A DNA stretch of 64,000 nt, from positions 1 to 64,000 of the forward strand of contig NZ_QDFT01000002.1 in NCBI RefSeq assembly GCF_003075375.1, read 5' to 3'. The notes beneath the pieces are model-generated. The model was not told the DNA's origin, did not search any database, and worked only from the letters and a program-made list of their open reading frames with translations. Position numbers and translations under genes: made by a program. This stretch comes from Microbacterium testaceum (GTDB taxonomy: Bacteria; Actinomycetota; Actinomycetes; Actinomycetales; Microbacteriaceae). Positions 12,000-28,569 of the stretch are shown piece by piece; within the stretch, counting starts at the first letter, position 1; each line of letters starts with the position of its first letter.

Positions 12000-13135
12000 T
12001 GCCCGAGGTCGATGCCGTCCCGCTCGCGCGGCTGACGACGCTGCGCACCGGCGGTCAGCCCGCCCGCCTCATCGAGGCGACGACGACCGACGAACTGGTC
12101 GCCGCCGTCCGCGAAGTCTGGGCCGAGGGCGGCGCGTGGTTCGTGCTGGGCGGGGGATCGAACCTCTTCGTGGGCGACGAGCCGTTCGACGGCACCGTCA
12201 TCCGCGTGCGGACCACCGGCATCGACGAACTCCCCGGTTCGCGGCCCGACACCGTCCGGCTGCGCGTGCAGGCCGGCCACGACTGGGACGCCTTCGTCGC
12301 CGAGACCGTCGCGCGCGGCTACGCCGGCGTCGAGGCCATGTCCGGCATCCCGGGCACCGTGGGCGCGGCTCCCGTGCAGAACGTGGGCGCTTACGGACAG
12401 GAGGTCGTGCAGACGCTCGTCGAGGTCGAGCTGCTCGACGAGTCGACGGGCGAGGTCTCGACGGTCCCCGCCGCCGAGCTGGGTCTGGGCTTTCGCACCT
12501 CGGTCTTCAAGCACCACTACGGCTCGGTTCCCGAGCGTCCTGCGGTGATCCTGTCGGCGACGTTCGAGCTCGAACGCGTCGGCGACGACGCGCGTCCGAT
12601 CGCCGGTGCGCAGCTGCGCGGAGCTCTCGGACTGGATGCCGACGAGGCGGTGTCGCTGCGCTGGATCCGCGACCATGTGCTCGCGACCCGCGCGCGCAAG
12701 GGCATGGTGCTCGACGCCGAGGACCCCGACACCTGGAGCGCGGGGTCGTTCTTCCAGAACGCGATCGTGTCGGAGTCCTTCGCCCGCACCCTTCCCGAGG
12801 CGTGCCCGAAGTGGCCGATGGCGCCCGAGATCGATCCGGTGACCGTCATCCCGCTCGCCGCGTTCGACGGCATCCTGCCCCCGCCCCCGGTCGAGCGGCG
12901 CGAGGTCAAGGTGAGCGCGGCGTGGCTCATCGAGAACGCCGGGCTGTCGCGCGGGTTCCGCTTTCCCCGCTCGCGCGCCGGGCTGTCGACCAAGCACACC
13001 CTCGCGTTGACGAACCGCGGTGAGGCGACCGCCGCCGAGATCGCGCAGCTCGCCCGCTTCGTGCAGCAGCGGGTGCAGGCCGAGTTCGGTCTGCTGCTGC
13101 AGCCCGAGCCCGTCCTGGTCAACGTCGAGCTGTAG
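11999..13135 (+). CDS. murB: UDP-N-acetylmuramate dehydrogenase
   Basis: A 378-residue FAD enzyme that reduces UDP-GlcNAc-enolpyruvate to UDP-MurNAc in the cytoplasm. LTTLRTGGQPARLIEATT opens the FAD domain, WFVLGGGSNLFVGDEPFDGTVI is the flavin pyrophosphate site, GYAGVEAMSGIPGTVGAAPVQNVGAYGQEV holds the conserved Arg/Tyr-Gly region, SAGSFFQNAIV carries the catalytic Ser in type I MurB, and AAWLIENAGLSRGFR plus STKHTLALTNRGEATAAEI end the substrate domain. Start is the ATG in TGATG shared with the hadB stop. Last gene of the hadA-hadB-murB operon. Confidence 0.95.
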   Translation: MPEVDAVPLARLTTLRTGGQPARLIEATTTDELVAAVREVWAEGGAWFVLGGGSNLFVGDEPFDGTVIRVRTTGIDELPGSRPDTVRLRVQAGHDWDAFVAETVARGYAGVEAMSGIPGTVGAAPVQNVGAYGQEVVQTLVEVELLDESTGEVSTVPAAELGLGFRTSVFKHHYGSVPERPAVILSATFELERVGDDARPIAGAQLRGALGLDADEAVSLRWIRDHVLATRARKGMVLDAEDPDTWSAGSFFQNAIVSESFARTLPEACPKWPMAPEIDPVTVIPLAAFDGILPPPPVERREVKVSAAWLIENAGLSRGFRFPRSRAGLSTKHTLALTNRGEATAAEIAQLARFVQQRVQAEFGLLLQPEPVLVNVEL

Positions 13136-13147
13136 GCGCGCCCCCGG

Positions 13148-13203
13148 CCGCGCGAGTCGCCGGGATTTGCCGTCAGTGCGAAACGTTCCGGCGACTCGCG
13201 CGG
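13148..13203. repeat. 56-bp palindrome between convergent murB and aminotransferase genes
   Basis: Perfect 16-bp arms CCGCGCGAGTCGCCGG / CCGGCGACTCGCGCGG around a 24-base loop. It could be a bidirectional terminator, yet the loop is long and there is no U-run. Its size is like that of the palindrome families elsewhere in this window, so it may be a solo dispersed element. Confidence 0.8.
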
Positions 13204-13210
13204 GGGAGGG

Positions 13211-14410
13211 TCAGGAGAACAGGCGCTGGAGGCGCTGTACACCCTCGAGGAGCTGGTCGTCACCGAGGGCGTACGACAGGCGCAGGTAGCCGCTCGGGCC
13301 GAAGGCCTCGCCGGGGACCACGGCGACCTCGGCCTGCTGGAGGATGAGGTCGGCCAGCTCGAGCGAGGTCGTCGGGGTGACGCCACCCCACTCGCGGCCC
13401 AGCAGGCCCTGCACGTCGGGGTAGACGTAGAACGCGCCGAGCGGGTTGGGCACCTCGACGCCGTCGATCTTCGACAGCTCCGACACGATCAGCTGGCGGC
13501 GGCGGTCGAAGGCGAGGCGGAACTGCTCGGCTTCGTCCTGCGGGCCGTTCAGCGCGGCCGCGGCGGCGATCTGCGCGACGTTGTTGACGTTGCTCGACAG
13601 GTGCGACTGCAGGTTGCCGGCGAGCTTCATGGCATCCGCGGGTCCCACCATCCAGCCCACGCGCCAGCCGGTCATGGCGTAGGTCTTCGCGACGCCGTTG
13701 ACGAGGATCGTCTGCGCCGCGAGCTCGGGCACGGCCTCGACGATCGACACGGCGCCGACGCCCTCGTAGGTCAGGTTCTGGTAGATCTCGTCGGTCACGA
13801 CCCAGATGCCGTGCTCGAGCGCCCAGCGACCGATCTCAGCCGTCTCTTCGGGGGTGTACACCGAGCCCGTGGGGTTGGACGGCGACACGAACACCAGCAC
13901 GGTGGTCTTGTCGGTGCGGGCGGCTTCGAGCTGGGCGACGGTGACCTTGTAGTCCTGGTCGGCGCCGGCGAACACCTCGACGGGCGTGCCGTCGGCGAGG
14001 GCGATGGCCTCGGGGTAGGTGGTCCAGTAGGGGGCGGGCAGCAGCACCTCGTCGCCGGGGTTCACCACCGTCTGGAACGCCTGGTACACGCTCTGCTTGC
14101 CGCCGTTGGTCACGATGACCTGCGAGGGCGACACCTCGAGGCCCGAGTCGCGCAGCGTCTTCGCGGCGATCGCCTCGCGCAGCACGGGCAGGCCCGCGGC
14201 GGGGGTGTAGCGGTAGTTCTTGGGGTCCTGCAGCGCCTTCGCCGCCTCGTCCACGATGAAGGACGGCGTCGCGAAGTCGGGCTCGCCGGCGGCGTACGAG
14301 ATGACGGGACGGCCGGCGGCCTGGAGGGCCTTGGCCTTGGCGTCGACTTTGAGGGTCGCGGACTCGGCGATGGCGGACAGCTTGCGGGAGAGCGGAGCAC
14401 GGGAGGTCAC
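13211..14410 (-). CDS. pyridoxal phosphate-dependent aminotransferase, AspC/class I
   Basis: A 399-residue fold-type I aminotransferase. [17 protein letters not shown] is the usual N-terminal substrate segment, [15 protein letters not shown] binds the cofactor phosphate, [14 protein letters not shown] holds the conserved Asn-Pro, [12 protein letters not shown] contacts the pyridine ring, and the Schiff-base lysine is in [33 protein letters not shown] carries the arginine that binds the substrate carboxylate. Best fit is aspartate or broad-range aminotransferase of the AspAT Ib group. Single gene, convergent with murB. Confidence 0.9.
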
Positions 14411-14489
14411 GGGACCGAGCCTAGTATTTCCGCCCTCACGGGCCGAGGGTCGTGACGACTCCGAAACACGGCTCCACTAACGTGGCCGG

Positions 14490-15785
14490 GTGACCGCCCC
14501 CCTTGCTCCACCCGTGCGCTCCCGACGTCGCGGATTCGGCACCCTCGTCCGCCTCGGCCTCGCGACGCTCGTCGCCGGGGTCGCCACGGGACTCGCCGTG
14601 CTGTTGCTGGTGTGGATCGTGCACAGCCTCGAGCACCTCGTCTGGGGTCACGAAGAGGGCCCCTTCCTCGACGGTCTCGCCTACCCCGAGGTCTGGTGGC
14701 TGCCGATCGTCACGGTCGGCGGCGCGGGCGTCGTGGCGGCGGTGGGCTGGTACCTGCTGCGCCGTTTCGGTCGCAGGATCGCCACCGTCGAGCAGGGTGT
14801 GGACGGGGCGCGGATGCCGTGGTGGGAGACCCTCGTCGACACCGTCCTGCAGGTGGGGTCGGTGGCCATGGGCGCCGCGATCGGCAAAGAGGTCGCGCCC
14901 CGCGAGCTCTCGGCCATGGCGGGGTCGAAGATCGTGCGGTGGTTCCGCCTCGACGCGCGGTGGAGCCGCATCCTCATCGCCTCGGCCGCCGGCGCGGGTC
15001 TCGGCGCGGTGTACAACGTGCCGTTGGCGGGCGCGCTCTTCGCCGTCGAGATCCTGCTGGCGCAGTTCAGTGTCGGCGCGGCCGTGGTCGCCCTGACCGT
15101 GAGCACGGTCGCGACGCTCGTCGCACGTCCGCTCGTGGGCGACGGCTCGCTCTACACGGTGGGGGCGCTCGAGGTGAACGCGTCGCTCATCGTCGCCGCC
15201 GTCCTCATCGGTCCCCTCATGGGGTGGGGGGCGACGAGCTTCTCGGCGGTGACGAAGAAGCTGTCGCGCTTCCGGCCCGAGGGCTGGAAGCTGCTGGTCG
15301 TCCTGCCGCTGACCTTCACGGCCGTCGGTGCCCTCGGCGCGGCGTTCCCCCTCCTCCTCGGAAACGGTCGGGCCCTCGCGACGGCCGGGTTCGACCTCTC
15401 GCAACCCGCCCTGCTGCTGCTCGCTCTCGCGGTGATGCGCTACGTCGCCACGGCGGTCTCTCTCGGCGCCGGCGCGATCGGCGGAACCCTCCAGCCCTCG
15501 GTCGCGATCGGTGCGGCGCTCGGAGCCGCCGCGGCGGCGGGGTGGGCCTTCGTCTGGCCCGGCGCCGACGGCACGGCGCTGGCGATCGTCGCGGCGGCGG
15601 CGTTCCTGGCATCCAATATGCGGGCCCCGTTCACCGCGATCGCGCTCATCATCGAGTTCACGAACACGGGTTTCGACCTGCTGCTGCCAATCTTCCTGGC
15701 CGTGGCGGGCTCGCTCGTCGCCTCGCGGTTGACCTCGCGCGAGAGCCTGCGCGGGTTCGCCCCGATCGACCCCGCGCGTCCGTAG
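14490..15785 (+). CDS. ClC-type chloride channel/antiporter family protein
   Basis: A 431-residue membrane protein with about ten hydrophobic segments. The family filter motif appears as GAAIGKEVAPRELSAM (the usual GREGP is GKEVAP, keeping the Glu), followed by AAGAGLGAVYNVPLAGALFAVEILL and the late GAIGGTLQPSVAIGAALGA. The early GSGIP motif is not clear, so ion selectivity is uncertain and fluoride- or proton-coupled forms are possible. TAACGT at 14478-14483 places transcription start on the GTG at 14490: another leaderless gene. Confidence 0.85.
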   Translation: MTAPLAPPVRSRRRGFGTLVRLGLATLVAGVATGLAVLLLVWIVHSLEHLVWGHEEGPFLDGLAYPEVWWLPIVTVGGAGVVAAVGWYLLRRFGRRIATVEQGVDGARMPWWETLVDTVLQVGSVAMGAAIGKEVAPRELSAMAGSKIVRWFRLDARWSRILIASAAGAGLGAVYNVPLAGALFAVEILLAQFSVGAAVVALTVSTVATLVARPLVGDGSLYTVGALEVNASLIVAAVLIGPLMGWGATSFSAVTKKLSRFRPEGWKLLVVLPLTFTAVGALGAAFPLLLGNGRALATAGFDLSQPALLLLALAVMRYVATAVSLGAGAIGGTLQPSVAIGAALGAAAAAGWAFVWPGADGTALAIVAAAAFLASNMRAPFTAIALIIEFTNTGFDLLLPIFLAVAGSLVASRLTSRESLRGFAPIDPARP

Positions 15786-15832: not shown

Positions 15833-16441
15833 GTGATCGAGTGGATTCTGGCCGAGTGGACGCAGATCCTGGGTTTCGCGACGGGGGCCGCCTGCGTCCT
15901 CCTGGCGGCCCGGCGCAACGTGTGGACGTACCCGATCGGCATCGCCAACAACCTCGTCTTCCTCGCGGTCTTCGTGCCCGCGGGGCTCTATGCGAGCGCC
16001 GCACTGCAGATCGTTTACCTGGTGCTCGGCGTGCACGGCTGGCTGCGGTGGACGCGCGGCGTCGAACACGACCGGGAGTACGTCGCGCGCACGCCCCGTC
16101 GCGTCGTCCCCTGGCTGGTCGTCGCGGCCCTCGCGGGCACCGCCGTGCTGACCGTGGTCCTCACGGTCTTCACCGATTCGCAGGTCGCTCTCGCGGACGC
16201 CGCGACGACCTCGGCGAGTCTCGTGGCGCAGTACATGCTGAACCGCAAATGGATCGAGAACTGGTGGGTCTGGATCGGCGTCGACGTCGCCTTCGTCGCG
16301 CTGTCGATCGCGACCGGGTTGTGGATCATCGCCGCCCTCTACGCCCTGTTCGTCGTGCTCTGCGTCGGTGGTCTGCGCTCGTGGCGCCGCGTGGAACGCG
16401 AGTCGACGGATGCCGGGATCCCGGCCGACGCGCGTGCCTGA
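15833..16441 (+). CDS. pnuC: nicotinamide riboside transporter PnuC
   Basis: A 202-residue membrane protein with about seven hydrophobic helices. WTQILGFATGAACVLLAARRNVWTYPIGIANNLVF is typical of PnuC (WPxGixxN substrate site), as are LYASAALQIVYLVLGVHGWLRW and YMLNRKWIENWWVWIGVDV. It imports nicotinamide riboside by facilitated diffusion, with trapping by the kinase encoded next door. TAGGCT (15821-15826) sits 6 bases before GTG 15833, so the transcript is leaderless. It overlaps nadR by 8 bases. Confidence 0.93.
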   Translation: MIEWILAEWTQILGFATGAACVLLAARRNVWTYPIGIANNLVFLAVFVPAGLYASAALQIVYLVLGVHGWLRWTRGVEHDREYVARTPRRVVPWLVVAALAGTAVLTVVLTVFTDSQVALADAATTSASLVAQYMLNRKWIENWWVWIGVDVAFVALSIATGLWIIAALYALFVVLCVGGLRSWRRVERESTDAGIPADARA

Positions 16442-17504
16442 GCGCCGGTACCGCCACGGGGTGGTGGTCGGCAAGTTCTACCCCCTGCACGTGGGTCACG
16501 ACCATCTCATCCGCTCGGCGGTGCGCGCGTGCGAGCGCGTGACGGTCGAGGTGATCGCGGCATCCGTCGAGTCCATCCCGCTCGAGCGGCGGGCCGCCTG
16601 GGTGCGGGAGAACCACCCGACCGTGCGCGTGGTCGACCTGCTCGACGACACCCCGGTCGATTTCGCCTCCGACACCGCGTGGCAGGCGCATACCGCGACC
16701 ATCGCCGGTCTCGTCGACGAGCCGGTCGACGTCGTCTTCACCTCCGACGAGTACGGGGCCGAGCTGGCGCGCCGTCTCGGTGCCGCGTGGGAGCAGGTCG
16801 ATCCGGGCCGGCGGCTCAACCCGGTGTCGGGCACGGCGATCCGCGCGGATCCGGACGCCCACTGGCACGAGCTCTCGCCCGCGGTGCGTGCCGATCTGAT
16901 CGCCCGCGTGGTCGTCCTCGGAGCCGAATCGACCGGGTCGACCACGCTCGCCGAGGCGCTCGCCGCCGAACTCGGCACGCTGTGGGTCCCCGAGTACGGC
17001 CGCGAGTTGAGCGTGACGCGCGAGGGCGGACTGGACGCTCCGTGGCGCAGCGACGAGTTCGACCTCGTCGTCGACCGTCAGATCGCGTGGGAACGGGATG
17101 CCGCGCGCCGCGCCCCGCGACCGGTGCTGGTGTGCGACACGGACGTGCTCGCCACGGCGCTGTGGCACGAACGCTACGTGGGCTCTCCGGCGCCGCGGAT
17201 CCTCGCGCGGGCCGCCGCTCACCGCCCCGCGCTGTACATCCTCACCGGAGACGAGATCCCCTTCGTCCAGGACGGGATGCGCGACGGCGAGCACATCCGC
17301 GCGGGGATGCAGGAACGCTTCCGCGAGGTGCTCGCGGCCCAGCCCGTGCCGTGGTTCGAGGTGCGCGGCTCGGTCGCCGAGCGGGTGGCATCCGCTCTGC
17401 CCGCCATCCGTCGGGCGGTGGCGGACGCGAGCTCGTTCGCGGCCCCGATGGAGGGGCGGCCGTACGCCGAGCAGCAGGAGCTGCAGCGGCGGGCGGCCGG
17501 TTAG
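16434..17504 (+). CDS. nadR: NadR-type bifunctional NMN adenylyltransferase / nicotinamide riboside kinase
   Basis: About 356 residues. The N-terminal nucleotidyltransferase has GKFYPLHVGHDHLI (HxGH motif) and a late LNPVSGTAIRADP. The C-terminal kinase has the P-loop-like GAESTGSTTLAEAL at about residue 160, where the usual Lys is Ser, and later VLVCDTDVLATALWHERY and LYILTGDEIPFVQDGMRDG. Together with PnuC it makes NAD from imported nicotinamide riboside: NR to NMN to NAD. GTG at 16434, overlapping the pnuC stop, is chosen because it starts just before the GKFYPLH motif; ATG at 16410 is possible. No N-terminal DNA-binding domain, unlike the enteric NadR. Confidence 0.88.
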   Translation: MPERRYRHGVVVGKFYPLHVGHDHLIRSAVRACERVTVEVIAASVESIPLERRAAWVRENHPTVRVVDLLDDTPVDFASDTAWQAHTATIAGLVDEPVDVVFTSDEYGAELARRLGAAWEQVDPGRRLNPVSGTAIRADPDAHWHELSPAVRADLIARVVVLGAESTGSTTLAEALAAELGTLWVPEYGRELSVTREGGLDAPWRSDEFDLVVDRQIAWERDAARRAPRPVLVCDTDVLATALWHERYVGSPAPRILARAAAHRPALYILTGDEIPFVQDGMRDGEHIRAGMQERFREVLAAQPVPWFEVRGSVAERVASALPAIRRAVADASSFAAPMEGRPYAEQQELQRRAAG

Positions 17505-17513: not shown

Positions 17514-19085
17514 ATGGCGGACCGCTGGCACAGGCTCTCGCAGTCACCCACCACCTCGGGCGTCGTCGACGGGGTCGCCCCGCTCACCGCGGAGGATCTG
17601 TTCCGCTCGCCGCCGGACGCGTCGGCCGTGCCCCTCGACGAGAAGCTGCGGCAGACCTACTACTGGATCGTCAACCGCGCCGTCATCTCGCCCTACTACG
17701 ACGTCGAGTTCTCGAGCGGGGCGCCGTTGGCCTTCACCCTGGGCGATGCCGGGGCCGAGCTGACCCTGCCGAGCGAACCGTCGTTCTCGTCGAACGTGCT
17801 GCTGCCGCTGTTGAGCTTCGCCGTCGGCGGGAGGTGTCTGCTCATCGGCGGTCCGGGGCGTGGCAAAACGACCGTCGCCGTGCTCATGGGGGTCCTGTCG
17901 GGGTCGACGCCCGACGACGTGCGGCGCGGCGTGCAGCAGGGTCAGCCGCAGCTCACGATCAGCGATCTGGTCGGCATCCCCCTTCCCCGCGACCTGATGA
18001 ACGCGTCGAGTCTCGCCGAGGTGGGCGTCGCGTGGCGCGACTGGCTCTCGCGACCGGTGAAGATCGTCGACGAATACAACCGCATCCCCACCAAGACCCA
18101 GTCGGCGCTGCTGACGATGGTGGCCGAGGGGTACGTCGAGAGTCACGACCAGATGCGGCGCACCGCCCCGGCGGAGGGCGTCGAGAGCTGGTTCTTCACC
18201 GCCAACGACGACGCGGGCGGCGGGACCTTCCCGGTCATCCAGGCGCTGCGCGACCGCATGGACGTGACGGTGCCGGCGGCGGGCTTCAACAGTCGGTTCC
18301 TCGACGAGCTCATCACGCGCGTCGAGGCGGGCGAGAAGCCCGAAGAGCACGTTCCGGCCGAGCTGGTTTTCGGCCCCGACGAGCAGACCGCGATGCGAGC
18401 GGCGATCCGGGCGGTGCCGGTGCCGGCCGAGGTGCGACGACGCCTGGAGTTCTTCCTCAGCCACTTCGAGTTCGTCCAGGGCGGGGGGCGCCGGTTCGAG
18501 TACCGCACGAAGGACACCGTGACCACCGCGGGCGGGCGCGTGGCCGAGACCATCGAGGCGAATTCCGGAGCGGATCTGATGGCCGATCTCGGCGCGCAGA
18601 CGTTGAACGGTCTGTCGGTGCGGGCGCTGCAGACCCTCATCGTCTACGCAAAGGCCGTGGCGTGGTTCCGGGGGCGCGACGCGGTCTCGCTCGCCGACGT
18701 CGCGGCGATGGTGCCCTTCGTCCTGCGCGGAAAACTCCTGCCCAACCCCACGCACCCGCGATTCGACGTGGGCGTCGAGCGCGAGTTGTCGACCGACACG
18801 ATGAGCTGGCTGAGCGACGTCTTCGCCGAGTCGTGCCGTCAGTACGACGCCCTCGGCCGGGGCGCCGAGGATCCGGTGCGCGACCTGTTGACGCAGCTGG
18901 ATGCCGGCCTCGACGGGGTCTCGGCGGTCGAGGCGTCGCGCCGGCTGACCTCGATCGAGGCGCGTCTGCGCGCGATGTCGACGACGGGCAAGCTCTACGG
19001 CCGCGACTTCGACGACCTCACCGCCCTGAAGTACCTGCACCAGCGCTACACCGCCTACCTTCGGTGGGTCGAGGGGCGCGCGTGA
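17514..19085 (+). CDS. MoxR/CbbQ-like AAA family ATPase, first gene of a five-gene operon
   Basis: A 523-residue protein. Walker A is GGPGRGKTTVAV (residues 112-123) and Walker B PVKIVDEYNRIP (about 181-192), with a sensor-like WFFTANDD (about 229). The pore and lid region (VRALQTLIVYAKAVAWFRGRDAVSLADV) resembles MoxR ATPases, which work as chaperones with vWA partners. A ~95-residue N-terminal extension has no match I know. Transcription probably starts on the ATG itself (TAGGCT at 17502-17507). It overlaps the next gene by GTGA. Downstream come a zincin-vWA protein and an adenylating enzyme, so the set looks like one machine. Confidence 0.85.
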   Translation: MADRWHRLSQSPTTSGVVDGVAPLTAEDLFRSPPDASAVPLDEKLRQTYYWIVNRAVISPYYDVEFSSGAPLAFTLGDAGAELTLPSEPSFSSNVLLPLLSFAVGGRCLLIGGPGRGKTTVAVLMGVLSGSTPDDVRRGVQQGQPQLTISDLVGIPLPRDLMNASSLAEVGVAWRDWLSRPVKIVDEYNRIPTKTQSALLTMVAEGYVESHDQMRRTAPAEGVESWFFTANDDAGGGTFPVIQALRDRMDVTVPAAGFNSRFLDELITRVEAGEKPEEHVPAELVFGPDEQTAMRAAIRAVPVPAEVRRRLEFFLSHFEFVQGGGRRFEYRTKDTVTTAGGRVAETIEANSGADLMADLGAQTLNGLSVRALQTLIVYAKAVAWFRGRDAVSLADVAAMVPFVLRGKLLPNPTHPRFDVGVERELSTDTMSWLSDVFAESCRQYDALGRGAEDPVRDLLTQLDAGLDGVSAVEASRRLTSIEARLRAMSTTGKLYGRDFDDLTALKYLHQRYTAYLRWVEGRA

Positions 19086-19735
19086 TCCGTCGCCCCGGTC
19101 ATCAGGCCGACGTGGAGCCCCCGCGCGGCGTGCCGACGCCGGTGCCCGGTCTCGACCTCGACCGCGCCGCGACCGCGGTGGTGGCGGCGGGTGGATCGGC
19201 GGCTCGCTTTGGGCACGCGCTCGCCGCCGGGCAGGCGCAGCTCGCCGCCGACGCACCCGTCGACCTCGTCGTGACGCTCGCCGGGATCGCCGGGTGGCGC
19301 GCGGGCGTCCTGGGGCTGCGCGACGACGCGCTGGCCCGCATCGTCGACGTCCCGCCACCGGCCGCGGCGGCCGCGCTCGGTCTCGCCGAGGCGGATCTGC
19401 GGGCCTTCACCGACCGTCAGCGGATCGATCGGTTCTGGTGGCCCGGCCGCACGGCGAGCCGCGGGTACGTGTGCGCGATCGGCGGCTTCGCGGGCTTCGG
19501 CGGCGCGTGGACGGCGCCCCCGGCCGATGCCCGGTCGCTCGCCGAGCCGGGCGCCTTCGCCGTGCGCACCGCGCGACGGTGGTGGCGAGTCGACGCCGAT
19601 GTCTGGGGGTCGAGGCTGACGGAGCTCCCCGCGGAGCCGACCGCCGCCGCGCCCCGGGGCGGTGGGGCCACGGCATCCCTCGTCACCTTCTCGGAGTCCT
19701 ACCTGGCCGGGGTCCACGTGGCGGAGTCCGCGTGA
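19082..19735 (+). CDS. unknown protein of the MoxR-vWA operon, 217 aa
   Basis: Starts at GTG 19082 overlapping the ATPase stop (GTGA) and ends overlapping the next start the same way. It is Ala-rich in the first half (DLDRAATAVVAAGGSAARFGHALAAG) with a central aromatic segment RIDRFWWPGRTASRGYVC and a Trp-rich ARRWWRVDADVWGSRL. No domain recognised, no signal peptide or membrane helix. The tight coupling implies it functions with the ATPase and the zincin-vWA protein. Confidence 0.8.
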   Translation: MIRRPGHQADVEPPRGVPTPVPGLDLDRAATAVVAAGGSAARFGHALAAGQAQLAADAPVDLVVTLAGIAGWRAGVLGLRDDALARIVDVPPPAAAAALGLAEADLRAFTDRQRIDRFWWPGRTASRGYVCAIGGFAGFGGAWTAPPADARSLAEPGAFAVRTARRWWRVDADVWGSRLTELPAEPTAAAPRGGGATASLVTFSESYLAGVHVAESA

Positions 19736-21549
19736 AGACGATGCCGCTCGCCGGGGACGACCGCCGCGCGTGGGAGAGCGCCCAGCAGCTGTGGGGCGTG
19801 CGGATGCACGACGCCACCCTGCGACCGGGCGCGGGGAGGGAGCACGGCGCACCCGCGTGGTTCACCTTTCCCCCGCAGATCGTCGTGGACCCGCGGATGG
19901 TCGCCGACCTCGGCGGCGCGGACGAGCTCGAGAGCGTCTTCGCGCACGAGCTCGGCCATCACGCCCTCGCCCCCGGCACACGGTTGGATGCGCTGAAGAT
20001 CCGCCACCAGTTGGCGCGCACCCTCGTCGCCGCCGGAGCCACGTCGCTGCGCGACGACGACCTCGCGATGCTGGCGAACCTGTGGACCGATCTGCTCGTG
20101 AACGCGCGGGTGGCACTGCTGCAGCGGCGGCGGGACGGCCCCGGCGAACCGGGGATCACGCGGCTGTCGCGCTCGCTCTTCCGCGCCTCGCGCGACACGG
20201 GAGGGCGGCTGTGGTGGGTGTACCTGCGCACGTATGAGCTGCTGTGGAACCTGCCCCCGGGCACGCTCTGCGCGGTCCAGCCGCCGCCCGCGCCGCGGCT
20301 GCCGCAACCGAGGCGGGCCGACGTCGAGGCCTCGGAGCCGTACCGCCGCCGGGCCGACGACAGAGTGCGCGCCGCGCGGGTCGAGGCCGAGCGCGTGGCG
20401 CGGGAACTGGCCGAGGCGACGATCACGCGCCCCGTCCTGGACGCCGACCTCCTCGCCGAGCTCGTGCGGACCTTCGCGGGCGACGCGGTGTCGGGGGCGC
20501 TGCGGTTCGGTGTGCTGATGGCGCCCTACGTCGTCGCTGATCGCGCGACGCTCGAGCGCATGCCGAGCGGGGTGTGCGCGGCCGACGATTCCCCGCCCGG
20601 CGGGTCGGAGCTCGGGAGGGTGCTGGCCGATCGCAGACTGCACGAACCGCTCCCCGCGCGCGAGATGCCCGGGCGCGGGCCCGCGAGCGGCGTCACGCGT
20701 TCGGACGGGGGTGGGGCGGGACAGGCCCTGGGGATCGCCGAGACCCTCGAGCTCTACGATGCAGCGGACCAGGATGCCGTGCTCGCCGCGTGGTACCGCT
20801 CCGAGGCCGCGCGGTGGGTGCGTCCGCTGACGCGGCGCGCTCCGTCGACGCCGTCCGAGGAGCTGCCCGGACCGGTCGAGACGTGGGAGACGGGCGACGA
20901 TCTGGCCGACCTCGACTGGCCGGCGACGCTCCGAGCCGGGGGAGTCGTGGTGCCGGGGATCACGACGCGGCGCCGCTCCTTCCTCGCCGACGAGCCGCTG
21001 CCGCGCGAGACGAGCATCACGCTCGACCTGTACATCGACTCGTCCGGCTCGATGCCGGACCCGCAGACCGGCTCGCCCGCGGTGCTCGCCGGCACCATCC
21101 TCGCGCTGTCGATCCTGCGGGGCGGGGGTCGCGTCCGCGTCGCGAGCTTCTCGGGGCCCGGCCAGGTGGGGGGCAGCGAGGACTTCTCGCGCGACCCGGT
21201 CCGCGTGGTGCGCGATCTCGCCCTGTTCTTCGGCGGAGGGACGACGTTCCCCCTCGATCTGCTCGAGCGTCGCTCGCTCGGGAGGCAACCGGCCACTCGG
21301 GAACGCCGCCATCTGGTCGTCCTGTCGGACGACGGGCTCGTGTCGATGTTCGGCGAGGGCGATCCCGATCGAGCCGGGGTCGCCGCGCAGGTGCGCGCGA
21401 CGCTGTCGACGGGCACTCTCGTCGTCCTCGACAGCTCGCGGCAGGTGGAACCCCTCGCCCGGGCGGCGGGGTACGACCTGCTGTACATCGAATCGATGGA
21501 CGACGCCCCCCGGGCGTGCGCCGAGCTGGCGGAGGTGCTCAATGGCTGA
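19732..21549 (+). CDS. zincin-like metallopeptidase fused to vWA domain
   Basis: A 605-residue protein. The N-terminal part has VFAHELGHHALAPG (HELGH at residues 72-76), a zincin HExxH motif. The C-terminal part is a von Willebrand A domain with the MIDAS motif LYIDSSGSMPD (residues 434-444), the Thr-bearing GGGTTFP and a third LSDDGLVSMF. This arrangement resembles DUF2201-type putative metallopeptidase plus vWA proteins that pair with MoxR ATPases. Between the two lies a charged linker of about 200 residues. GTG start at 19732 overlaps the previous stop. Likely client or adaptor of the ATPase; protease activity is inferred from the motif only. Confidence 0.82.
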   Translation: MKTMPLAGDDRRAWESAQQLWGVRMHDATLRPGAGREHGAPAWFTFPPQIVVDPRMVADLGGADELESVFAHELGHHALAPGTRLDALKIRHQLARTLVAAGATSLRDDDLAMLANLWTDLLVNARVALLQRRRDGPGEPGITRLSRSLFRASRDTGGRLWWVYLRTYELLWNLPPGTLCAVQPPPAPRLPQPRRADVEASEPYRRRADDRVRAARVEAERVARELAEATITRPVLDADLLAELVRTFAGDAVSGALRFGVLMAPYVVADRATLERMPSGVCAADDSPPGGSELGRVLADRRLHEPLPAREMPGRGPASGVTRSDGGGAGQALGIAETLELYDAADQDAVLAAWYRSEAARWVRPLTRRAPSTPSEELPGPVETWETGDDLADLDWPATLRAGGVVVPGITTRRRSFLADEPLPRETSITLDLYIDSSGSMPDPQTGSPAVLAGTILALSILRGGGRVRVASFSGPGQVGGSEDFSRDPVRVVRDLALFFGGGTTFPLDLLERRSLGRQPATRERRHLVVLSDDGLVSMFGEGDPDRAGVAAQVRATLSTGTLVVLDSSRQVEPLARAAGYDLLYIESMDDAPRACAELAEVLNG

Positions 21550-22150
21550 CGCCGACGAACTCCTGCGGGTGTGGTCGACCCTCGCGCCCCCCGAGGCCGA
21601 GGCCTGGGCGCTCGCGAGCCCCGGCCCGGCGCTCGACGCGGTCGCCGTCCGACTGTCGAGCGTGCCGCGCCCGTTCCTCGACGACGAGGTCTCCCTCGCG
21701 GCCCTGTCGGGCGATGTGATCGGGGCGGTCTGCGCCTCGGCCGCCCACGCGGACGACCCGCGCGTGCGCCGCGGGGCGGCGATCGGTCTGTGGTTGCTGG
21801 CCAGCGAACAACTCGTCGAGCCGTTCCGACCGTCGCCGGCCGGTCCGCGGGCGATGCGCGCCGTCGACGCGTTGGCGCTCCGGCTCGCACCGGTGGTGGA
21901 CCCGCTCGACTGGTTGTCCGACGACGAACGGCGAGAGGAGGCCGCGCGCACCTTCCTGCTGTGGGCGGGGTTCCTGCCCGCGGGTGAGGACCGTTCGACC
22001 GCGCAGGCGCTGTGGCAGGCGCGGGACTCCCTGCGCCGTAGCAGCGCCCTCGCCGAGGCCTACGCGGCGCACGAGCACCGTGCCGAGATCGCCCGGCGTC
22101 TCGCGGAGGCCCGAGCCAGAGAGGCTGCGGCGAGGTACTCGAGTGAATGA
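21542..22150 (+). CDS. unknown helical protein of the MoxR-vWA operon, 202 aa
   Basis: ATG at 21542 overlaps the end of the zincin-vWA gene by 8 bases. The protein appears all-alpha, with regions such as LAALSGDVIGAVCASAAHA and MRAVDALALRLAPVVDPLDWLSDDERREEAARTFLLWAGF, and ends in a charged likely coiled coil (EHRAEIARRLAEARAREAAARY). No family recognised. Its stop overlaps the next start. Confidence 0.8.
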   Translation: MADADELLRVWSTLAPPEAEAWALASPGPALDAVAVRLSSVPRPFLDDEVSLAALSGDVIGAVCASAAHADDPRVRRGAAIGLWLLASEQLVEPFRPSPAGPRAMRAVDALALRLAPVVDPLDWLSDDERREEAARTFLLWAGFLPAGEDRSTAQALWQARDSLRRSSALAEAYAAHEHRAEIARRLAEARAREAAARYSSE

Positions 22151-23555
22151 CCACGGCACGTCGGCGCTGCCCGACCGCGACGGGACGACGGCGACCCACG
22201 ATCCTGACGACCCTCTCGCGCTGGGGGAGTACCGCCCGGGTGCGACGGCGGTGCTGACGGATGCCGAACGCTGGCCGACCCTGGACGCCGCGGCCGCGGC
22301 CCGCCTGGACCGCTGGCGGTCCCACCCCGCCGCTCCCGCGTGGGTGCACGCGACCGGCGACCGGCTGACGGCGGAGGCGGTCGAACGGACGCGCCGGCCG
22401 CTGCCGCTCGCGGGGTGGATGGACGAGCATCTCGCCATCGCCCGGAGGCTGCCGTTCTACCGGGGGATGACGGGCCTGGAGTCCCTGGCGGATTTCCCCC
22501 TCATCGGTCGGTCCGACCTCGTGAGCGACGTCTCGGCGTTCGTCCCCCTCGACGCCGACCTCGACCGCTTGCTCCACGGCACGAGCTCGGGCTCCACCGG
22601 GGCGGCGCTCGTCATCCCCGACGACGTCGAAGAGGTCGCGCGGGGGTTCCATCTGCTCGTCGATCTCGTCCGCCGCGCCGGGGTCGAGTGGCGCCCGGAC
22701 GCGGAGAGGATGGCCCTGGTGTGGGTGCTGCAGCAGCGTCAGGCGTTCACCTACGTCTCGGTGATCAGCGGGTTCGCGCACCGAGCCATGGCCCGGGTGA
22801 ATCTCGACGAGCGTGCCTGGCGGGTGGCATCCGACCGCTCCCTCTTCCTCGCCGACGCCGATCCGCAGGTGATCTCGGGAAACCCGACGAGCCTGGCCGA
22901 GCTGCTGCGCGACGACCTGCGCTCCATCGTGCGTCCGCTCGCGCTCTTCTCGGGCGCGATGGCCCTGGCGGCGCCGCTGCGCGCTGAGCTCGAGGCCGCC
23001 TTCGCGTGCCCGGTGATCGACGTCTACGGTCTGCACGAGACGCGGCCGATCGCGGCGCGCACCGACGACGGTCCGTTCCGCGTGCTGGATCGCCGGGTCC
23101 ATGTCGAGGTCGTGGATGCCGCGGGGCGGCCGCTGCCCGAGGGCGGCGTCGGAGAGCTCGTCGTGACGGCGGGCGAGAACCCCCTGCTGCCCCTGGTCCG
23201 CTATCGCACGGGAGACGTCGGGCGCCTGGTGCGGCTCGCAGACGGAGCGGTGGGCATCGCCGACCTCGAGGGCCGCGAGCACACCGAGTTCGTCACCGGG
23301 GCGGGAGGCCGCATCCCCTCGGTCGATCTCACGCAGCAACTGCAGACGTACGGCGCACGCGGCTGGGCCGTCGTGCAGGCCCCCGACGGTGCGGTCGAGG
23401 TCACGATCGCGGGGGGCGATGCCGCCCGGGTGCGGCGGGCGCTGCAGGCGCTGCTCGATCAGCGGGTCGTCGTCACCCGCGTCGAGCGGCTGATTGACCT
23501 GGGTGAGGGCAAGCCCCGGCGGTTCGTCTCGCACGCGGCCCCGCGGCCCGCATGA
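22143..23555 (+). CDS. phenylacetate-CoA ligase (PaaK/CapK)-like AMP-forming enzyme
   Basis: A 470-residue ANL-superfamily enzyme in the PaaK/CapK branch. HGTSSGSTGAALVIP (about residues 145-159) is the ATP phosphate loop, VYGLHETRPIA the adenine and Mg site, and LPLVRYRTGDVGRLV the segment with the conserved Asp. CapK-type relatives activate carboxylates in polysaccharide or antibiotic pathways; here no such genes are near. As fifth gene of an operon with a MoxR ATPase and a metallopeptidase-vWA protein its acyl substrate may be a protein or peptide tag, which is speculation. GTG start at 22143 overlaps the previous stop by 8 bases. Confidence 0.8.
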   Translation: MNDHGTSALPDRDGTTATHDPDDPLALGEYRPGATAVLTDAERWPTLDAAAAARLDRWRSHPAAPAWVHATGDRLTAEAVERTRRPLPLAGWMDEHLAIARRLPFYRGMTGLESLADFPLIGRSDLVSDVSAFVPLDADLDRLLHGTSSGSTGAALVIPDDVEEVARGFHLLVDLVRRAGVEWRPDAERMALVWVLQQRQAFTYVSVISGFAHRAMARVNLDERAWRVASDRSLFLADADPQVISGNPTSLAELLRDDLRSIVRPLALFSGAMALAAPLRAELEAAFACPVIDVYGLHETRPIAARTDDGPFRVLDRRVHVEVVDAAGRPLPEGGVGELVVTAGENPLLPLVRYRTGDVGRLVRLADGAVGIADLEGREHTEFVTGAGGRIPSVDLTQQLQTYGARGWAVVQAPDGAVEVTIAGGDAARVRRALQALLDQRVVVTRVERLIDLGEGKPRRFVSHAAPRPA

Positions 23556-23601: not shown

Positions 23602-25293
23602 TCAGTCGAGGTACTTTGCGTAGGCCGGGAGCGTGAGGAACGCGGGGAACTCCTCGCGCAGGGCCACCTCGCGGAACACCGCGGCGGCGTCGTCGAAGCG
23701 GTCGCCCTCGGACCGCGGCGTCTCGGCGAGCATCTCGGTCACGATCCGCTCGACGAGGTCGCGCGTGATCGGGGTCCCCTCGACGGTGCGGTGGTCCTGG
23801 TGGATCCACTGCCAGATCTGCGAGCGCGAGATCTCGGCGGTCGCGGCGTCCTCCATCAGGTCGTCGATCGCGACGGCGCCCAGACCCCGCAGCCACGCCT
23901 CGATGTACCGCAGGGTCACCGACACGTTGCCGCGCACGCCCGCCTCGGTCACGGGCCGGCCGATGCGCACGTCGAGCAGGTCGGCCGGTTCGACCGTCAC
24001 CTCGTCGCGGGTGCGGTGCAGCTGGTTCGCCGCCGTCCCCAGCACCGCGTCGAACTCGGCGCGGGCCACCGGGATGAGATCGGGGTGGGCCACCCACGTG
24101 CCGTCGAAGCCGTCGCCCGCCTCGCGCCGCTTGTCGGCGGCGACCTTCTCGAACGCCGCCTCGGTCACCTCGGGCTTGCGCCGGTTGGGGATGAACGCGC
24201 TCATGCCGCCGATCGCGTAGGCGCCGCGCTTGTGGCACGTGCGCACGAGCAGCTCGGTGTAGGCCCGCATGAAGGGCACCGTCATCGTCACCTCGCTGCG
24301 GTCGGGGAGGACGAAGCGCGCCCCGCGGCCGCGGTAGGTCTTGATGATCGAGAAGATGTAGTCCCACCGCCCGGCGTTCAGGCCCGCGCAGTGGTCGCGC
24401 AGGGCGAAGAGGATCTCCTCCATCTCGAACGCCGCGGGCAGCGTCTCGATCAGCACGGTCGCGCGGATCGTGCCGTGGGCCAGACCCAGCCGCTCCTCGG
24501 TGAACGAGAACACGTCGTCCCACAGCCGCGCCTCTTCGGCGGACTCGATCTTCGGCAGGTAGAAGTACGGACCCCGGCCCGCGGCGATCAGCGCGTGCGC
24601 GTTGTGGAACACGTACAGGCCGTAATCGACGAGGGAACCGGATGCCGGCAGCTCCCGCCCCGCCCGGTCGATGAACGTCACGTGCTTCTCGGGCAGGTGC
24701 CATCCGCGCGGGCGCATCACGATGGTGGGCGTGCGCTCGGCGGTGACCTCGTAGCGCTTTCCCTCGGCGCTCGTGAACGACAGCTGCCCGCGGATCGCGT
24801 CGAACAGCGACACTTGTCCGCCGATGACGTTCGCCCAGGTGGGGCTCGTGGCATCCTCCTGGTCGGCGAGCCAGACCCGCGCTCCGGAGTTGAGCGCGTT
24901 GATGGTCATCTTCGGGTCGGTGGGGCCGGTGATCTCGACCCGTCGGTCCTCGAGGCCGGGACCCGCTCCGGCCACGCGCCACGAGGGGTCCTCGCGGATG
25001 TGCGCCGTGTCGGCGCGGAAGTGCGGGTCGTCCCCCGTGCCGATCTCGAAGCGGCGGCGCAGGCGCGCAGCGAGCCGGTCGTGGCGACGCCGGGCGAAGC
25101 GGTCGTGCAGCTCGGTGACGAAGGCGAGCGCGGCGGGGGTCAGGATCTCGCCGTCGCGTCCCTCGAGGGGGCGCTCGAGACGCAGATGGGGGAGGGATGC
25201 CGAGGGTGCCGGCATCCGGGATTCTTCGGCGTCGGTACGGCTCCCGGTCGGCGGGGTCGCGGCGGTGGGCGGGGGAGAGGTGATGAGGGTCAT
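23602..25293 (-). CDS. aceB: malate synthase A
   Basis: A 563-residue type A malate synthase, which condenses glyoxylate and acetyl-CoA in the glyoxylate bypass. ITGPTDPKMTINALNSGARVWLADQEDATSPTW contains the signature region, PRGWHLPEKHV the conserved catalytic Arg region, and RWDYIFSIIKTYR the family signature block; the late IEAWLRGLGAVAIDDLMEDAATAEISRSQIWQW holds the catalytic Asp in DLMEDAATAE. ATG at 25293 is taken in preference to an upstream in-frame GTG at 25338. It follows aceA on the same strand after a 184-bp gap that contains a long palindrome. Confidence 0.95.
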   Translation of the reverse strand: MTLITSPPPTAATPPTGSRTDAEESRMPAPSASLPHLRLERPLEGRDGEILTPAALAFVTELHDRFARRRHDRLAARLRRRFEIGTGDDPHFRADTAHIREDPSWRVAGAGPGLEDRRVEITGPTDPKMTINALNSGARVWLADQEDATSPTWANVIGGQVSLFDAIRGQLSFTSAEGKRYEVTAERTPTIVMRPRGWHLPEKHVTFIDRAGRELPASGSLVDYGLYVFHNAHALIAAGRGPYFYLPKIESAEEARLWDDVFSFTEERLGLAHGTIRATVLIETLPAAFEMEEILFALRDHCAGLNAGRWDYIFSIIKTYRGRGARFVLPDRSEVTMTVPFMRAYTELLVRTCHKRGAYAIGGMSAFIPNRRKPEVTEAAFEKVAADKRREAGDGFDGTWVAHPDLIPVARAEFDAVLGTAANQLHRTRDEVTVEPADLLDVRIGRPVTEAGVRGNVSVTLRYIEAWLRGLGAVAIDDLMEDAATAEISRSQIWQWIHQDHRTVEGTPITRDLVERIVTEMLAETPRSEGDRFDDAAAVFREVALREEFPAFLTLPAYAKYLD

Positions 25294-25360
25294 GGTCGTG
25301 GCTTTCTGTGCGGTGCGCCCCAGCCCGTGGCCCGTCACCCGCTCGCGGCCCGCCGCAGAT

Positions 25361-25422
25361 GTCGAGTGTCCAGAACACGCCGCGAGAGTCGAGGCGGTTA
25401 CGGCGTGTCCAGGACAGTCGAC
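25361..25422. repeat. 62-bp palindrome between aceA and aceB
   Basis: Arms of 22 bases (25361-25382 and 25401-25422) pair with three mismatches; outer ends GTCGA / TCGAC, inner ACACGCCG / CGGCGTGT, 18-base loop. It could be an attenuator or mRNA stabiliser between aceA and aceB or a solo dispersed palindrome of the kind seen elsewhere here. Confidence 0.85.
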
Positions 25423-25477
25423 GGGCTGACGAACGGGTGGGCGGGGAGGGGCGGACGGACGGGGCGTGAAAGTGAGG

Positions 25478-26794
25478 TCAGTGGAACTGGGCGGTCTCGG
25501 TCGAGCCGGCCAGGGCGAGCGTGGCGCTGTCGGGGTTGAGCGCGGTCGAGACGACGTCGAAGTATCCGGTGCCCGCTTCGCGCTGGTGGCGCGTGGCGGT
25601 GTACCCGTTCGCTTCGGCGGCGAACTCGGCCTCCTGCAGCTCGACGTACGCGCTCATGGCGCGCTCGGCGTAGCCGCGGGCGAGGTCGAACATCGAGTGA
25701 TTCACGGCGTGGAAGCCGGCCAGCGTGATGAACTGGAAGGCGTAGCCGAGAGCGGCCAGGTCGGCCTGGAACGTGGCGATCTGCTCGTCGTCGAGGTGGC
25801 GCTTCCAGTTGAAGCTCGGCGAGCAGTTGTAGGCGAGCTTCTTGCCCGGGTAGCGGGCGTGGATCGCCTCGGCGAAGCGGCGGGCCAGCTCGATGTCGGG
25901 TTCGCCCGTCTCGACCCAGATCAGGTCGGCATAGGGGGCGAAGGCGAGACCGCGCGAGATCACGGCATCCAGTCCGGGTCGCACCCGGTAGAAGCCCTCG
26001 CTGGTGCGCTCGCCGGTGAGGAACGCCGCGTCGCGCTCGTCGACGTCGCTGGTGAGCAGGTCGGCGGCCAGGGCGTCGGTGCGGGCGATGATCACCGTCG
26101 GCACCCCCGCGACGTCCGCGGCCAGGCGGGCGGCGTTCAGCGTTCGGATGTGCTGCTGCGTGGGCACGAGCACCTTGCCGCCGAGGTGACCGCACTTCTT
26201 CTCGCTGGCGAGCTGATCTTCCCAGTGGATGCCGGCGGCCCCCGCCGCGATCAGCGACTGCGCCAGCTCGTAGGCGTTCAGCGGCCCACCGAACCCCGCC
26301 TCGGCGTCGGCGACGATCGGCGCGAGCCAGTCCTGCGTGATCTCTCCCTCGGCGCGCTCGATCTGGTCCTGGCGCAGCAGCGCGTTGTTGATGCGCCGGA
26401 CGACCGCGGGCACGCTGTTGGCGGGGTACAGGCTCTGGTCGGGGTAGGTCTGCCCCGCGAGGTTGCCGTCCGCGGCGACCTGCCAGCCGCTCAGGTAGAT
26501 GGCCTTGAGCCCGGCGCGCACCTGCTGGACGGCCTGGCCGCCGGTGTAGGCGCCGAGCGCGCGGACGTACTCCTCGGTGTGGATGAGGTTCCACAGGTTC
26601 TCCGCTCCCCGGCGCGCGAGCGTGGACTCCTCGCGGACGCTCCCGCGGAGGCGGACGACGTCCTCGGCGGTGTATGTCCGCTCGATGCCGTCCCAGCGCG
26701 GGTCGTTCTGCCACGCGGCGCGGATCTCATCGGCGGTCTCGGTCTGGTCGCCGGGGCGCAGGGGCTGCTGGGCGGGGGTGGCCTGGATCGTCAT
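25478..26794 (-). CDS. aceA: isocitrate lyase
   Basis: A 438-residue enzyme that splits isocitrate into succinate and glyoxylate. The active-site signature is [11 protein letters not shown] (catalytic Cys), with [31 protein letters not shown] and the late [15 protein letters not shown]. Start ATG at 26794 has a perfect GGAGG 6 bases upstream. It is divergent from a RamB-like regulator whose Corynebacterium homologue represses aceA and aceB. Confidence 0.97.
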
Positions 26795-26923
26795 GTCGTC
26801 CTCCTTCGGGTGCCGGGGCGTCGGTGCCCCGTGCAGACCACTGTCCGCGAAGAACCACCCCCTGCAAGAGAAATGTCGCAGTGAAGTTCGACCGATCTTC
26901 TGTTCGTGTGAGAACCTTCCGGT
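26795..26923. promoter_or_regulatory. divergent control region of aceA and the RamB-like gene
   Basis: A 129-bp gap. The segment around 26860-26895 is less GC-rich, with an interrupted inverted repeat CTGC-(N)-GCAG at about 26864-26882 and ttgcag-like half-sites, a plausible place for RamB-type binding. I see no unambiguous -35/-10 pair. Confidence 0.4.
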
Positions 26924-28399
26924 ATGGACACCGGCGTCTCCCTCCCCGCGGCACCCCTCCCGCTCGACCATGAAGAGGTGGACACCCTCACCATCGGTCG
27001 GCGCATCCGGCAGCTGCGCACCGCGCGCGGTCTGACCCTCGACGACCTCGCCGCGGCCGTCGGGCGCGCGCCGAGCCAGATGTCGATGATCGAGAACGGC
27101 CGCCGCGAAGCGAAGCTCACCCTGCTGCAGGCGATCGCGCGGGCGCTGGAGTGCCGGCTCGATCAGATCCTGGATGCCGAACCCCTCGACGCCCGCGCGG
27201 CGCTCGAGATCTCGGTGGAACGGGCCATGCGGGGCCAGACGTTCCAAGCGCTCGGGATCGAGCCGTTCCGTGTCGGCCGGTCCGTCCCCGACGAGGTGCT
27301 GTCCGCGATGCTCGCGCTGCAGGGCGAGATCGAACGCCTGCGCGAGGAGCGGTCGGCCACCCCCGAAGAGGCCCGCCGCGCCAACGTCGCGCTCCGGCGG
27401 CTGATGCGCACACAGGACAACCATTTTCCCGAGCTGGAGCGCGTGGCATCCGGGATGCTCGCGGCGATCGAGCATCCGGGCGGGCCGCTGACGCAGCGCG
27501 GGGCGAGCGACATCGCCGCGCACCTCGGGTTCACGCTGCACTACGTCCCCGACCTGCCGTCGTCGACGCGCAGCATCGCCGACGTGAAGAACGGACGGCT
27601 GTACCTGTCGACGCGGGTCGCGAAAGGCGACCCGCGCGCCGCGGTGCTGCAGGCGCTGTCGAGCCGCATCCTCGGCCACGGCGAACCGACGAGCTACGAC
27701 GAGTTTTTGCGCCAACGCGTCGAGACGAACTACCTCACGGGTGCCCTGCTCATGCCCGAGGAGCACGTCGTCCCGACCCTGCACGAGGCGAAGGAGCGAC
27801 GCGCGCTGAGCATCGAGGACCTGCGCGACGCCTACTCGGTGTCGTACGAGACCGCCGCGCACCGCTTCACCAACCTGGCGACGGTGCACCTCGGCATCCC
27901 GGTGCACTTCCTCAAGGTGCACGAGTCGGGCACGATCACGAAGGCGTACGAGAACGACGACGTGAACTTCCCCACCGACCGGCTGGGCTCCATCGAGGGG
28001 CAGATGTGCTGCCGGCGCTGGACGAGCCGCGTGGTCTTCGACGAGGACGATCTGTTCAACCCGTACTACCAGTACACCGACACGGGCAACGGCACCTACT
28101 GGTGCACCGCCCGCGTGGAGCAGTCGAGCGAGGGCGCGCACTCGGTCAGCGTGGGCGTGCGCTTCGACGACACGCGGTGGTTCAGAGGCCGCGACACGAC
28201 CAACCGCGCCGTCTCGCGTCACGCCGTCGAGACCTGCTGCCGACGGGCGCCCGCCTCGCTCGAGAACGCCTGGCGCGGTCAGGCGTGGCCGAACGTCCGG
28301 ACCCCGCGCACGCTGCTGGCGACCCTGCCGACCGGGTCGTTCCCGGGCGTCGACACGACCGAGATGTACGAGTTCCTGGAGGCGCACGCCCCCCGGTGA
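26924..28399 (+). CDS. RamB-like XRE family short-chain fatty acyl-CoA regulator
   Basis: A 491-residue ScfR-type regulator. The N-terminal XRE helix-turn-helix spans about residues 20-80 ([20 protein letters not shown], then [25 protein letters not shown]). A middle ImmA/IrrE-like region ([32 protein letters not shown]) and the C-terminal Cys-rich domain ([23 protein letters not shown]) match the RamB/ScfR family that senses acyl-CoA and regulates acetate, propionate and glyoxylate genes. Its divergence from aceA supports autoregulation and control of aceA-aceB. Start ATG at 26924 has no clear Shine-Dalgarno. Confidence 0.88.
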
Positions 28400-28483
28400 C
28401 CCCGCCGGGGGCGGGGGCCCACCGCGGCGGGTCACCGGTGCTGTCGCGGCGACGGCGGCAGTGGTGCGGTGGTGGGGCCGGGC

Positions 28484-28569
28484 GTGCACAGCGGCGGGTT
28501 GCGGGTGCGACACGCCGGGGGAGGGATGCCGTGGCGCGGCGTGTCGGAGAAAGTCCCGCCGTTGTGCAC
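28484..28569. repeat. family B palindrome, copy 1 (86 bp)
   Basis: Outer arms GTGCACAGCGGCGGG / CCCGCCGTTGTGCAC, inner arms CGACACGCCG / CGGCGTGTCG. Located 56 bp past the stop of the DUF559-like gene; the other three copies lie on the far side of that gene. All four are 86 bp. Confidence 0.9.

Follow-up and report, generated by a model that had tools for sequence, protein, structure and literature searches.

A five-gene MoxR-vWA-metallopeptidase cassette with a PaaK-like adenylate-forming enzyme is genomically tied to NAD salvage genes in Microbacterium testaceum and its relatives

In a stretch of 64,000 nucleotides from Microbacterium testaceum (assembly GCF_003075375.1, contig NZ_QDFT01000002.1, positions 1 to 64,000; hereafter the window), we identified a cassette of five overlapping genes, A to E, that encode a MoxR-type ATPase (A), a zincin fused to a von Willebrand factor A (vWA) domain (C), a PaaK-like adenylate-forming enzyme (E) and two proteins of no assigned family (B and D), and that directly follow genes for the transporter PnuC and a NadR-like enzyme of nicotinamide adenine dinucleotide (NAD) salvage. 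The gene unit, its conservation, its conserved catalytic motifs and its genomic tie to NAD salvage are directly supported by the analyses below. We propose, with about even confidence, that the cassette encodes a MoxR-vWA-metallopeptidase remodelling complex that has its own acid-activating enzyme and serves the NAD economy of the cell; the assembly into one complex, the motor mechanism and the NAD-dependent role are what we infer.

The A/B, B/C, C/D and D/E junctions overlap by 4, 4, 8 and 8 bases. A first-pass annotation, made from the letters of the window alone, had placed five genes with junctions overlapping by 4–8 bases at 17514–23555, exactly where we find them, and its calls of a MoxR ATPase, a zincin-vWA fusion and a PaaK-like ligase are correct. 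It had also taken the overlaps to imply a fixed stoichiometry, a ratio that overlaps do not entail, and it had started the operon at A, overlooking the two genes directly upstream: the run comprises seven genes, PnuC, NadR and then A to E. PnuC and NadR overlap by 8 bases, and NadR stops 9 bases ahead of A. While PnuC lies above the equivalog cut-off of TIGR01528 and holds the same position in other cassette loci, the NadR match to TIGR01526 covers nearly the whole model and scores 186.3 bits, under the cut-off of 341.15, and the window gene is therefore termed NadR-like. PnuC imports nicotinamide riboside. NadR converts this compound to nicotinamide mononucleotide (NMN) and NAD (PMC7221760; this and the other papers cited by PMC number were available in excerpt).

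To describe the spread of the cassette, we used loci from genome contig records (six loci), from 58 relatives (five matches, including the window's own), from a family sample of 249 genomes (11 matches, that in G074 being weak and without a cassette), from an order sample of 297 genomes (12 matches), from an Actinomycetota phylum sample of 396 genomes (18 matches, of which G000 and G463 hold cassettes and the other 16 come from families f38 or f44, the 15 that were fetched showing a two-gene A-C pair discussed below) and from 282 genomes of a second phylum, that of the genome of locus L010 (23 matches). The nearest named loci belong to Microbacterium, with 78–82% identity in C. At the other extreme, L010, from a metagenome-assembled genome labelled 'Proteobacteria bacterium', has the same five genes with overlaps of 4, 4, 4 and 8 bases, at identities of 44% for A and 25% for C and E. 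The order A-B-C-D-E is identical in all 19 loci in which all five genes were called and in ten of ten further order-sample loci, so that the ligase gene E, which the first-pass annotation had counted as part of the unit, is indeed syntenic, with exceptions in the second phylum. Among the 19 loci, A/B and B/C each overlap by 4 in 18, C/D overlap in 19 and D/E in 16, counts that are biased toward short overlaps by our choice of the start codon closest to the preceding stop. In a tree of 61 A proteins, the 30 Actinomycetota cassettes form one clade (97/93), adjoined by nine second-phylum relatives (type I); eight more loosely grouped relatives (type II, including L010) lie farther out, and the two-gene pairs fall far outside.

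The tie to NAD salvage is evident both from gene content and from gene position. In the family sample, NadR (E at most 1e-30) was found in 13 genomes, namely all ten that bear the cassette and three of the 239 that do not (G076, G250 and G154; Fisher p = 1.4e-15, kinship ignored). A fresh test in the order sample (E at most 1e-20) detected NadR in ten of ten new cassette genomes as against two of 69 cassette-free ones, taken as every third handle (p = 4.6e-11). In a further set (E at most 1e-5), it was present in 11 of 11 cassette genomes (G001, G009, G030, G047, G463, the L010 genome and five Microbacterium records) and in none of nine without (five cassette-free genomes of the genus Microbacterium and four with the two-gene pair). 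Altogether, NadR accompanies the cassette in 30 of the 30 Actinomycetota cassette genomes found (ten from the family, three from the genus, five Microbacterium records, G047, G463 and ten from the order). The signal is weaker in the second phylum, where NadR occurs in 10 of the 23 genomes with a C-family match and in 5 of 55 others, taken as every fifth handle (p = 0.001); when the three of the ten that had contributed rows to the query alignment (G692, G964 and G1145) are removed, the counts become 7 of 20 and 5 of 55 (p = 0.012). By type, NadR is present in nine of 12 type I genomes and in one of 11 others; this amounts to a pattern rather than a test, as the split was made post hoc and six of the 23 loci, with A cut by a contig end, were typed by B or by the C motif. 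In cassette-free G154, PnuC and NadR are fragmented (L105:8906-10038).

Twenty-four Actinomycetota loci hold both PnuC and NadR inside the fetched stretch. Taking the A start closest to the NadR stop, NadR ends between 29 bases inside A and 10 bases before it in 20 of these, with an overlap of 4 in L034, L127, L128, L129 and L135, and lies 0.4 to 3.4 kb upstream of A in the remaining four. Six Actinomycetota genomes (G134, G174, G196, G229, G278 and G463) have an unlinked NadR, away from the cassette. Type I loci of the second phylum show yet other arrangements: PnuC-NadR converges on E in L175, NadR-PnuC lies downstream of the cassette in antisense in L186, and NadR follows E with an overlap of 4 in L187. 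In L186, moreover, a gene for nicotinate phosphoribosyltransferase (PncB; NF006695, 589 bits against a cut-off of 469) stops 54 bases ahead of A. That the same partner recurs in several layouts argues for a functional connection, beyond inheritance alone, and the regular association with genes for NAD supply suggests a machine that consumes, protects or serves NAD. A survey of the neighbourhood of the zincin-vWA gene, which the first-pass annotation had recommended, thus showed the cassette to be conserved and yielded, in PnuC-NadR, the strongest clue to function, one absent from that annotation; in the 21 loci surveyed, no other gene is a constant partner.

Several observations weigh against this proposal. 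NadR is neither necessary nor sufficient for the cassette: three type I genomes lack a NadR match (G1134, G1025 and G1099, the cassette of G1134 lying on a 10.3 Mb contig), as do ten of the 11 second-phylum genomes that are not type I, and cassette-free genomes with NadR were seen in each comparison (3/239, 2/69 and 5/55). The co-occurrence counts ignore kinship, and the Actinomycetota cassettes represent a single clade. Furthermore, since NadA, of de novo NAD synthesis, was found in 19 of the 21 cassette genomes tested (a set outside which the ten order-sample genomes fall), salvage is not the only source of NAD in most of them; the same result led us to reject NAD auxotrophy as the reason for the presence of NadR. 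Finally, E is absent or substituted in some second-phylum loci. In L168, a 768-residue protein with isochorismatase, APH/TCAD9 and dual-specificity-phosphatase domains follows D in the place of E (2419-4725, minus strand). A 792-residue protein occupies the same place in L169 (5652-8030, plus strand) and resembles that of L168 by eye.

The catalytic motifs of A and C are conserved (Table 1). Protein A has the Walker A motif and the lid of the MoxR clade of AAA+ ATPases, scoring 37.2 bits, above cut-off, for Pfam AAA_lid_2 and 26.5 bits, just under the cut-off of 27, for AAA_3, for which it is the lowest-scoring of four matches in its own genome; Walker A is retained in 47 of 48 A homologues, the remaining one being truncated by a contig end. 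C combines a HELGHH zinc motif in its N-terminal part with a vWA domain bearing a metal ion-dependent adhesion site (MIDAS) in its C-terminal part, as in the vWA partner genes of MoxR-vWA pairs, and it terminates with that domain, without an effector or propeller behind it. Taking the best C copy per locus outside the two-gene group, HExGHH, N-x3-D-x3-N and D-x-SGS are each present in 53 of 53 C proteins, 22 of them from second-phylum loci, several of which are truncated at contig ends or are without one or more of B, D and E; in the two-gene group, the first two motifs occur in none of 14 proteins and D-x-SGS in all 14. The HELGH motif to which the first-pass annotation had pointed is therefore conserved. 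Family matches for C are less clear: Peptidase_M48 scores 19.7 bits, just under its cut-off of 20.3, and matches 12 of 17 C members at a lenient threshold (E up to 1), while VWA_2 matches weakly in six of 17 (best E 0.032). A kinship of C to DUF2201 metallopeptidase-vWA proteins is unsupported, as no DUF2201 match was obtained in the 17 members at E up to 1.

Protein E scores 36.6 bits for Pfam AMP-binding (cut-off 29.9), and a profile search identified PaaK (PDB 2y4o) at E 3.8e-20. With its AMP-binding domain, P-loop, RYRTGD motif and C-terminal lysine, it has the features of the ANL adenylate-forming enzymes, but at 43.7 bits against the 646.3 of the PaaK equivalog TIGR02155 it does not qualify as a phenylacetate-CoA ligase. 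Its motifs vary more than those of A and C: RYRT[GS]D is present in 39 of 44 E proteins, and the lysine equivalent to K457 is lost or shifted in a few of the wider relatives.

Neither B nor D of the window belongs with confidence to any Pfam, NCBIfam or PADLOC family, and 17 B and 16 D homologues likewise gave no confident Pfam family, in agreement with the first-pass annotation, which had reported the proteins of 217 and 202 residues to be without recognisable domains. Structure prediction, which it had suggested, gave confident models for both (predicted local distance difference test 90.4 for B and 91.9 for D), and none of the matches to them is a firm structural relative. The model of B is helical in its N-terminal part and beta in its C-terminal part, which carries WPG and GGFxGxGG motifs; its best Foldseek E was 0.65 and its best VIA Z 6.6, a middling value that relates the C-terminal part to propeller blades and scarcely covers the N-terminal part. 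For D, which is all helical, the best Foldseek E was 1.6, and no Z of at least 2 was obtained among 101 chains. B and D look like scaffold or adaptor parts. B is fast-evolving in the alignment. Where it was read in Actinomycetota and type I loci, it has a GGFxGxGG-like motif; the gap after A is filled in seven type II loci by a gene of about 300 codons without such a motif. The occurrence of B and D was not taken from iterated profiles, which drifted onto wrong-frame open reading frames. A conserved C-terminal glutamate of D, considered as a MIDAS ligand, was discarded, as D of L034 has another ending.

Table 1. Genes and conserved motifs of the PnuC-NadR-cassette run, in window coordinates
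Feature	Position	Strand	Remarks
PnuC, nicotinamide riboside transporter, 202 aa	15833..16441	+	TIGR01528 82.2 bits, cut-off 42.45
NadR-like NMN adenylyltransferase / ribosylnicotinamide kinase	16434..17504	+	GTG start at 16434, read from sequence
Gene A, MoxR-type AAA+ ATPase, 523 aa	17514..19085	+	ATG start
Walker A of A, GGPGRGKT, residues 112-119	17847..17870	+	G112-T119 invariant in A alignment
Gene B, protein without assigned family, 217 aa	19082..19735	+	GTG start
Gene C, zincin fused to vWA, 605 aa	19732..21549	+	GTG start
Zinc motif of C, HELGHH, residues 72-77	19945..19962	+	HExGHH in alignment
N-x3-D-x3-N of C, conserved	residues 116-124		after HELGHH
MIDAS motif of the vWA of C, DSSGSM, residues 436-441	21037..21054	+	D-x-SGS in alignment
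Gene D, all-helical protein without assigned family, 202 aa	21542..22150	+	ATG start
Gene E, PaaK-like adenylate-forming enzyme, 470 aa	22143..23555	+	GTG start
P-loop of E, SSGSTG, residues 148-153	22584..22601	+	alignment; relatives show variants
C-terminal lysine of E, K457	23511..23513	+	17/17 in E alignment

In the mechanism that we favour, A to E would assemble as a single ATP-driven complex, in which A would be the MoxR motor, C its vWA partner bearing a working metallopeptidase, and B and D dedicated subunits or adaptors. By analogy with NorQ/NorD, the vWA domain may grip a client that A pulls, while either this client or one of the subunits is trimmed by the zincin; E would convert a small carboxylic acid to its adenylate and then pass it on. 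The complex might mature, repair or control a step that depends on NAD or consumes it, and would be co-produced with PnuC and NadR because it serves the NAD economy. That a group might be attached to a protein and removed or matured, as the first-pass annotation had suggested, is one possibility. A bolder version, to which we assign only a very small probability, is an NAD-fed reversible protein modification: E would adenylate a small acid, perhaps pyridine or aromatic, with which it would load a subunit or client, namely B, D or NadR, while the MoxR-vWA-zincin pair would present, mature or strip that client, so that the state of the NAD supply might be written onto a protein and then read back. 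If true, protein modification coupled in this way to a remodelling ATPase would form a new class.

A different role, which we regard as unlikely, is that of a conflict system against phage or stress, silent until an invader or a loss of NAD is sensed, whereupon the peptidase and motor would release or activate a harmful product and PnuC-NadR would refill NAD. Published MoxR-vWA ternary systems have been interpreted in this manner, with peptidases possible (PMC7159879), and the patchy distribution (ten cassettes in 249 family genomes), the fast evolution of B and the substitution of E in L168, with its look-alike by eye in L169, would all be in keeping with it. However, no match was found on plasmids (A and C searched), in phage records (A at E 1e-5, C at E 0.01) or in viral contigs (A searched), which also leads us to discard a mobile element; PADLOC gave no match for B to E and one for A only at E 0.01; the order is stable, without effector exchange, in the 29 mapped Actinomycetota loci; and no defence genes were noticed in the neighbourhoods read, in which they were not systematically sought. 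We rank this explanation below a role in the NAD economy because neither mobility nor effector turnover was seen in Actinomycetota.

It is also conceivable, if rather improbable, that an ancestral adjacency of PnuC-NadR and the cassette arose by chance and was simply inherited, the role of the cassette being unrelated to NAD. As the Actinomycetota cassettes are one clade, their counts are not independent, and of G250 and G901, one genus by handle, the former has PnuC-NadR without and the latter with the cassette. Inheritance by itself fits poorly, however, with NadR being present even where it is unlinked, in the six Actinomycetota genomes, and with its linkage in other layouts in the second phylum. 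We likewise give little credence to a role in maturing E, or another enzyme encoded elsewhere, by insertion of a metal or cofactor, as NorQD does for nitric oxide reductase, while the peptidase removes a leader. Known MoxR-vWA pairs do mature partner enzymes (PMC7159879, PMC13036017), but E is not from a known metalloenzyme family, and PnuC and NadR were the only constant partner genes found in the 21 loci.

Additional features were noted around the cassettes. In the window, a ClC-type-channel-like gene (14490-15785, plus strand) stops 47 bases ahead of PnuC, and malate synthase-like and isocitrate lyase-like open reading frames (23602-28513, minus strand) converge on E, all three named by reading; the ClC-like gene recurs close to the cassette in six of 21 loci and the malate-synthase-like frame in nine of 21. 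A gene for an isochorismatase-family hydrolase (PF00857, 113 bits) is divergent from PnuC in G901 (L126:4189-4797, minus strand). In the kinase half of NadR, S or T replaces the Walker A lysine (GAESTG[ST]TT) in Micrococcales loci with a readable motif, whereas the usual K is found in L115, L116, L186 and L187; the replacement was discarded as a clue, since it also occurs in cassette-free genomes. L186 has an additional C-D pair after E (12649-15095), the second C lacking HExGHH, and in L185 a 736-residue GHKL-ATPase-like protein and a Ser/Thr-kinase-like protein, read by eye, lie between C and D (9157-13003).

The core A-C pair is of a kind already known, as group 2.2 jumbo phages have been described to encode a MoxR ATPase adjoining a vWA protein with an N-terminal metallopeptidase, proposed to act in virion assembly (PMC7824862). 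A and C share this architecture and gave no sequence match in phage records. In the excerpt, neither NAD genes nor counterparts of B, D and E are mentioned alongside the phage pair, and MoxR and NAD salvage are treated in separate sections. The MoxR-vWA ternary conflict systems with VMAP, iSTAND, FtsH or beta-propeller components likewise join MoxR and vWA to constant proteins in fixed order (PMC7159879, as excerpted). However, the VMAP-MoxR-vWA order given there differs from that of the cassette, where MoxR comes first and vWA third, and by regular expression the VMAP motifs WxhapG and PsWRxa are missing from A of the window and each present in one of 48 homologues. The propeller system, with its P-loop often GxxxTAKS and its vWA followed by a propeller, is not matched either: GxxxTAKS occurs in none of the 48, and C ends at its vWA domain. 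FtsH or iSTAND are not among the five genes, the neighbours having been read by eye without a profile search.

NorQ/NorD, RavA/ViaA and CbbQ/CbbO also pair a MoxR motor with a MIDAS-bearing vWA partner and are not known to have a peptidase domain such as that of C. In NorQ/NorD, a linker of the vWA partner is put under strain by the motor so that metal can enter the client (PMC13036017, in excerpt), and by analogy A and C should act like other MoxR-vWA pairs. E has the AMP-binding fold motifs of PaaK phenylacetate-CoA ligases while scoring far under their equivalog cut-off. Within Actinomycetota, the two-gene pair of families f38 and f44 (L070-L084) consists of adjacent genes homologous to A and C. 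Its zincin-like domain lacks HExxH (0/14), no B or D was detected and no E lies at the pair in the 15 loci fetched, and NadR is absent from the four genomes tested. The pair is followed by a third gene in L070 (300 codons) and in L072 (281 codons).

We found no account of a five-gene unit with a ligase, a spread over two phyla and a tie to PnuC, NadR and, in one locus, PncB in the literature searched, which covered few subscription journals; judged by titles, abstract openings and term counts, no listed paper links MoxR-vWA to PnuC, NadR or PaaK. Machines of the MoxR-vWA type occur widely, and many of them lack a known client. For the machine described here, NAD salvage provides a named pathway partner, and E lends itself to assays with a range of acids; relatives are present in named Microbacterium strains. 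A set of hypothetical genes becomes a testable machine, one that would link AAA+ remodelling, proteolysis and NAD metabolism.

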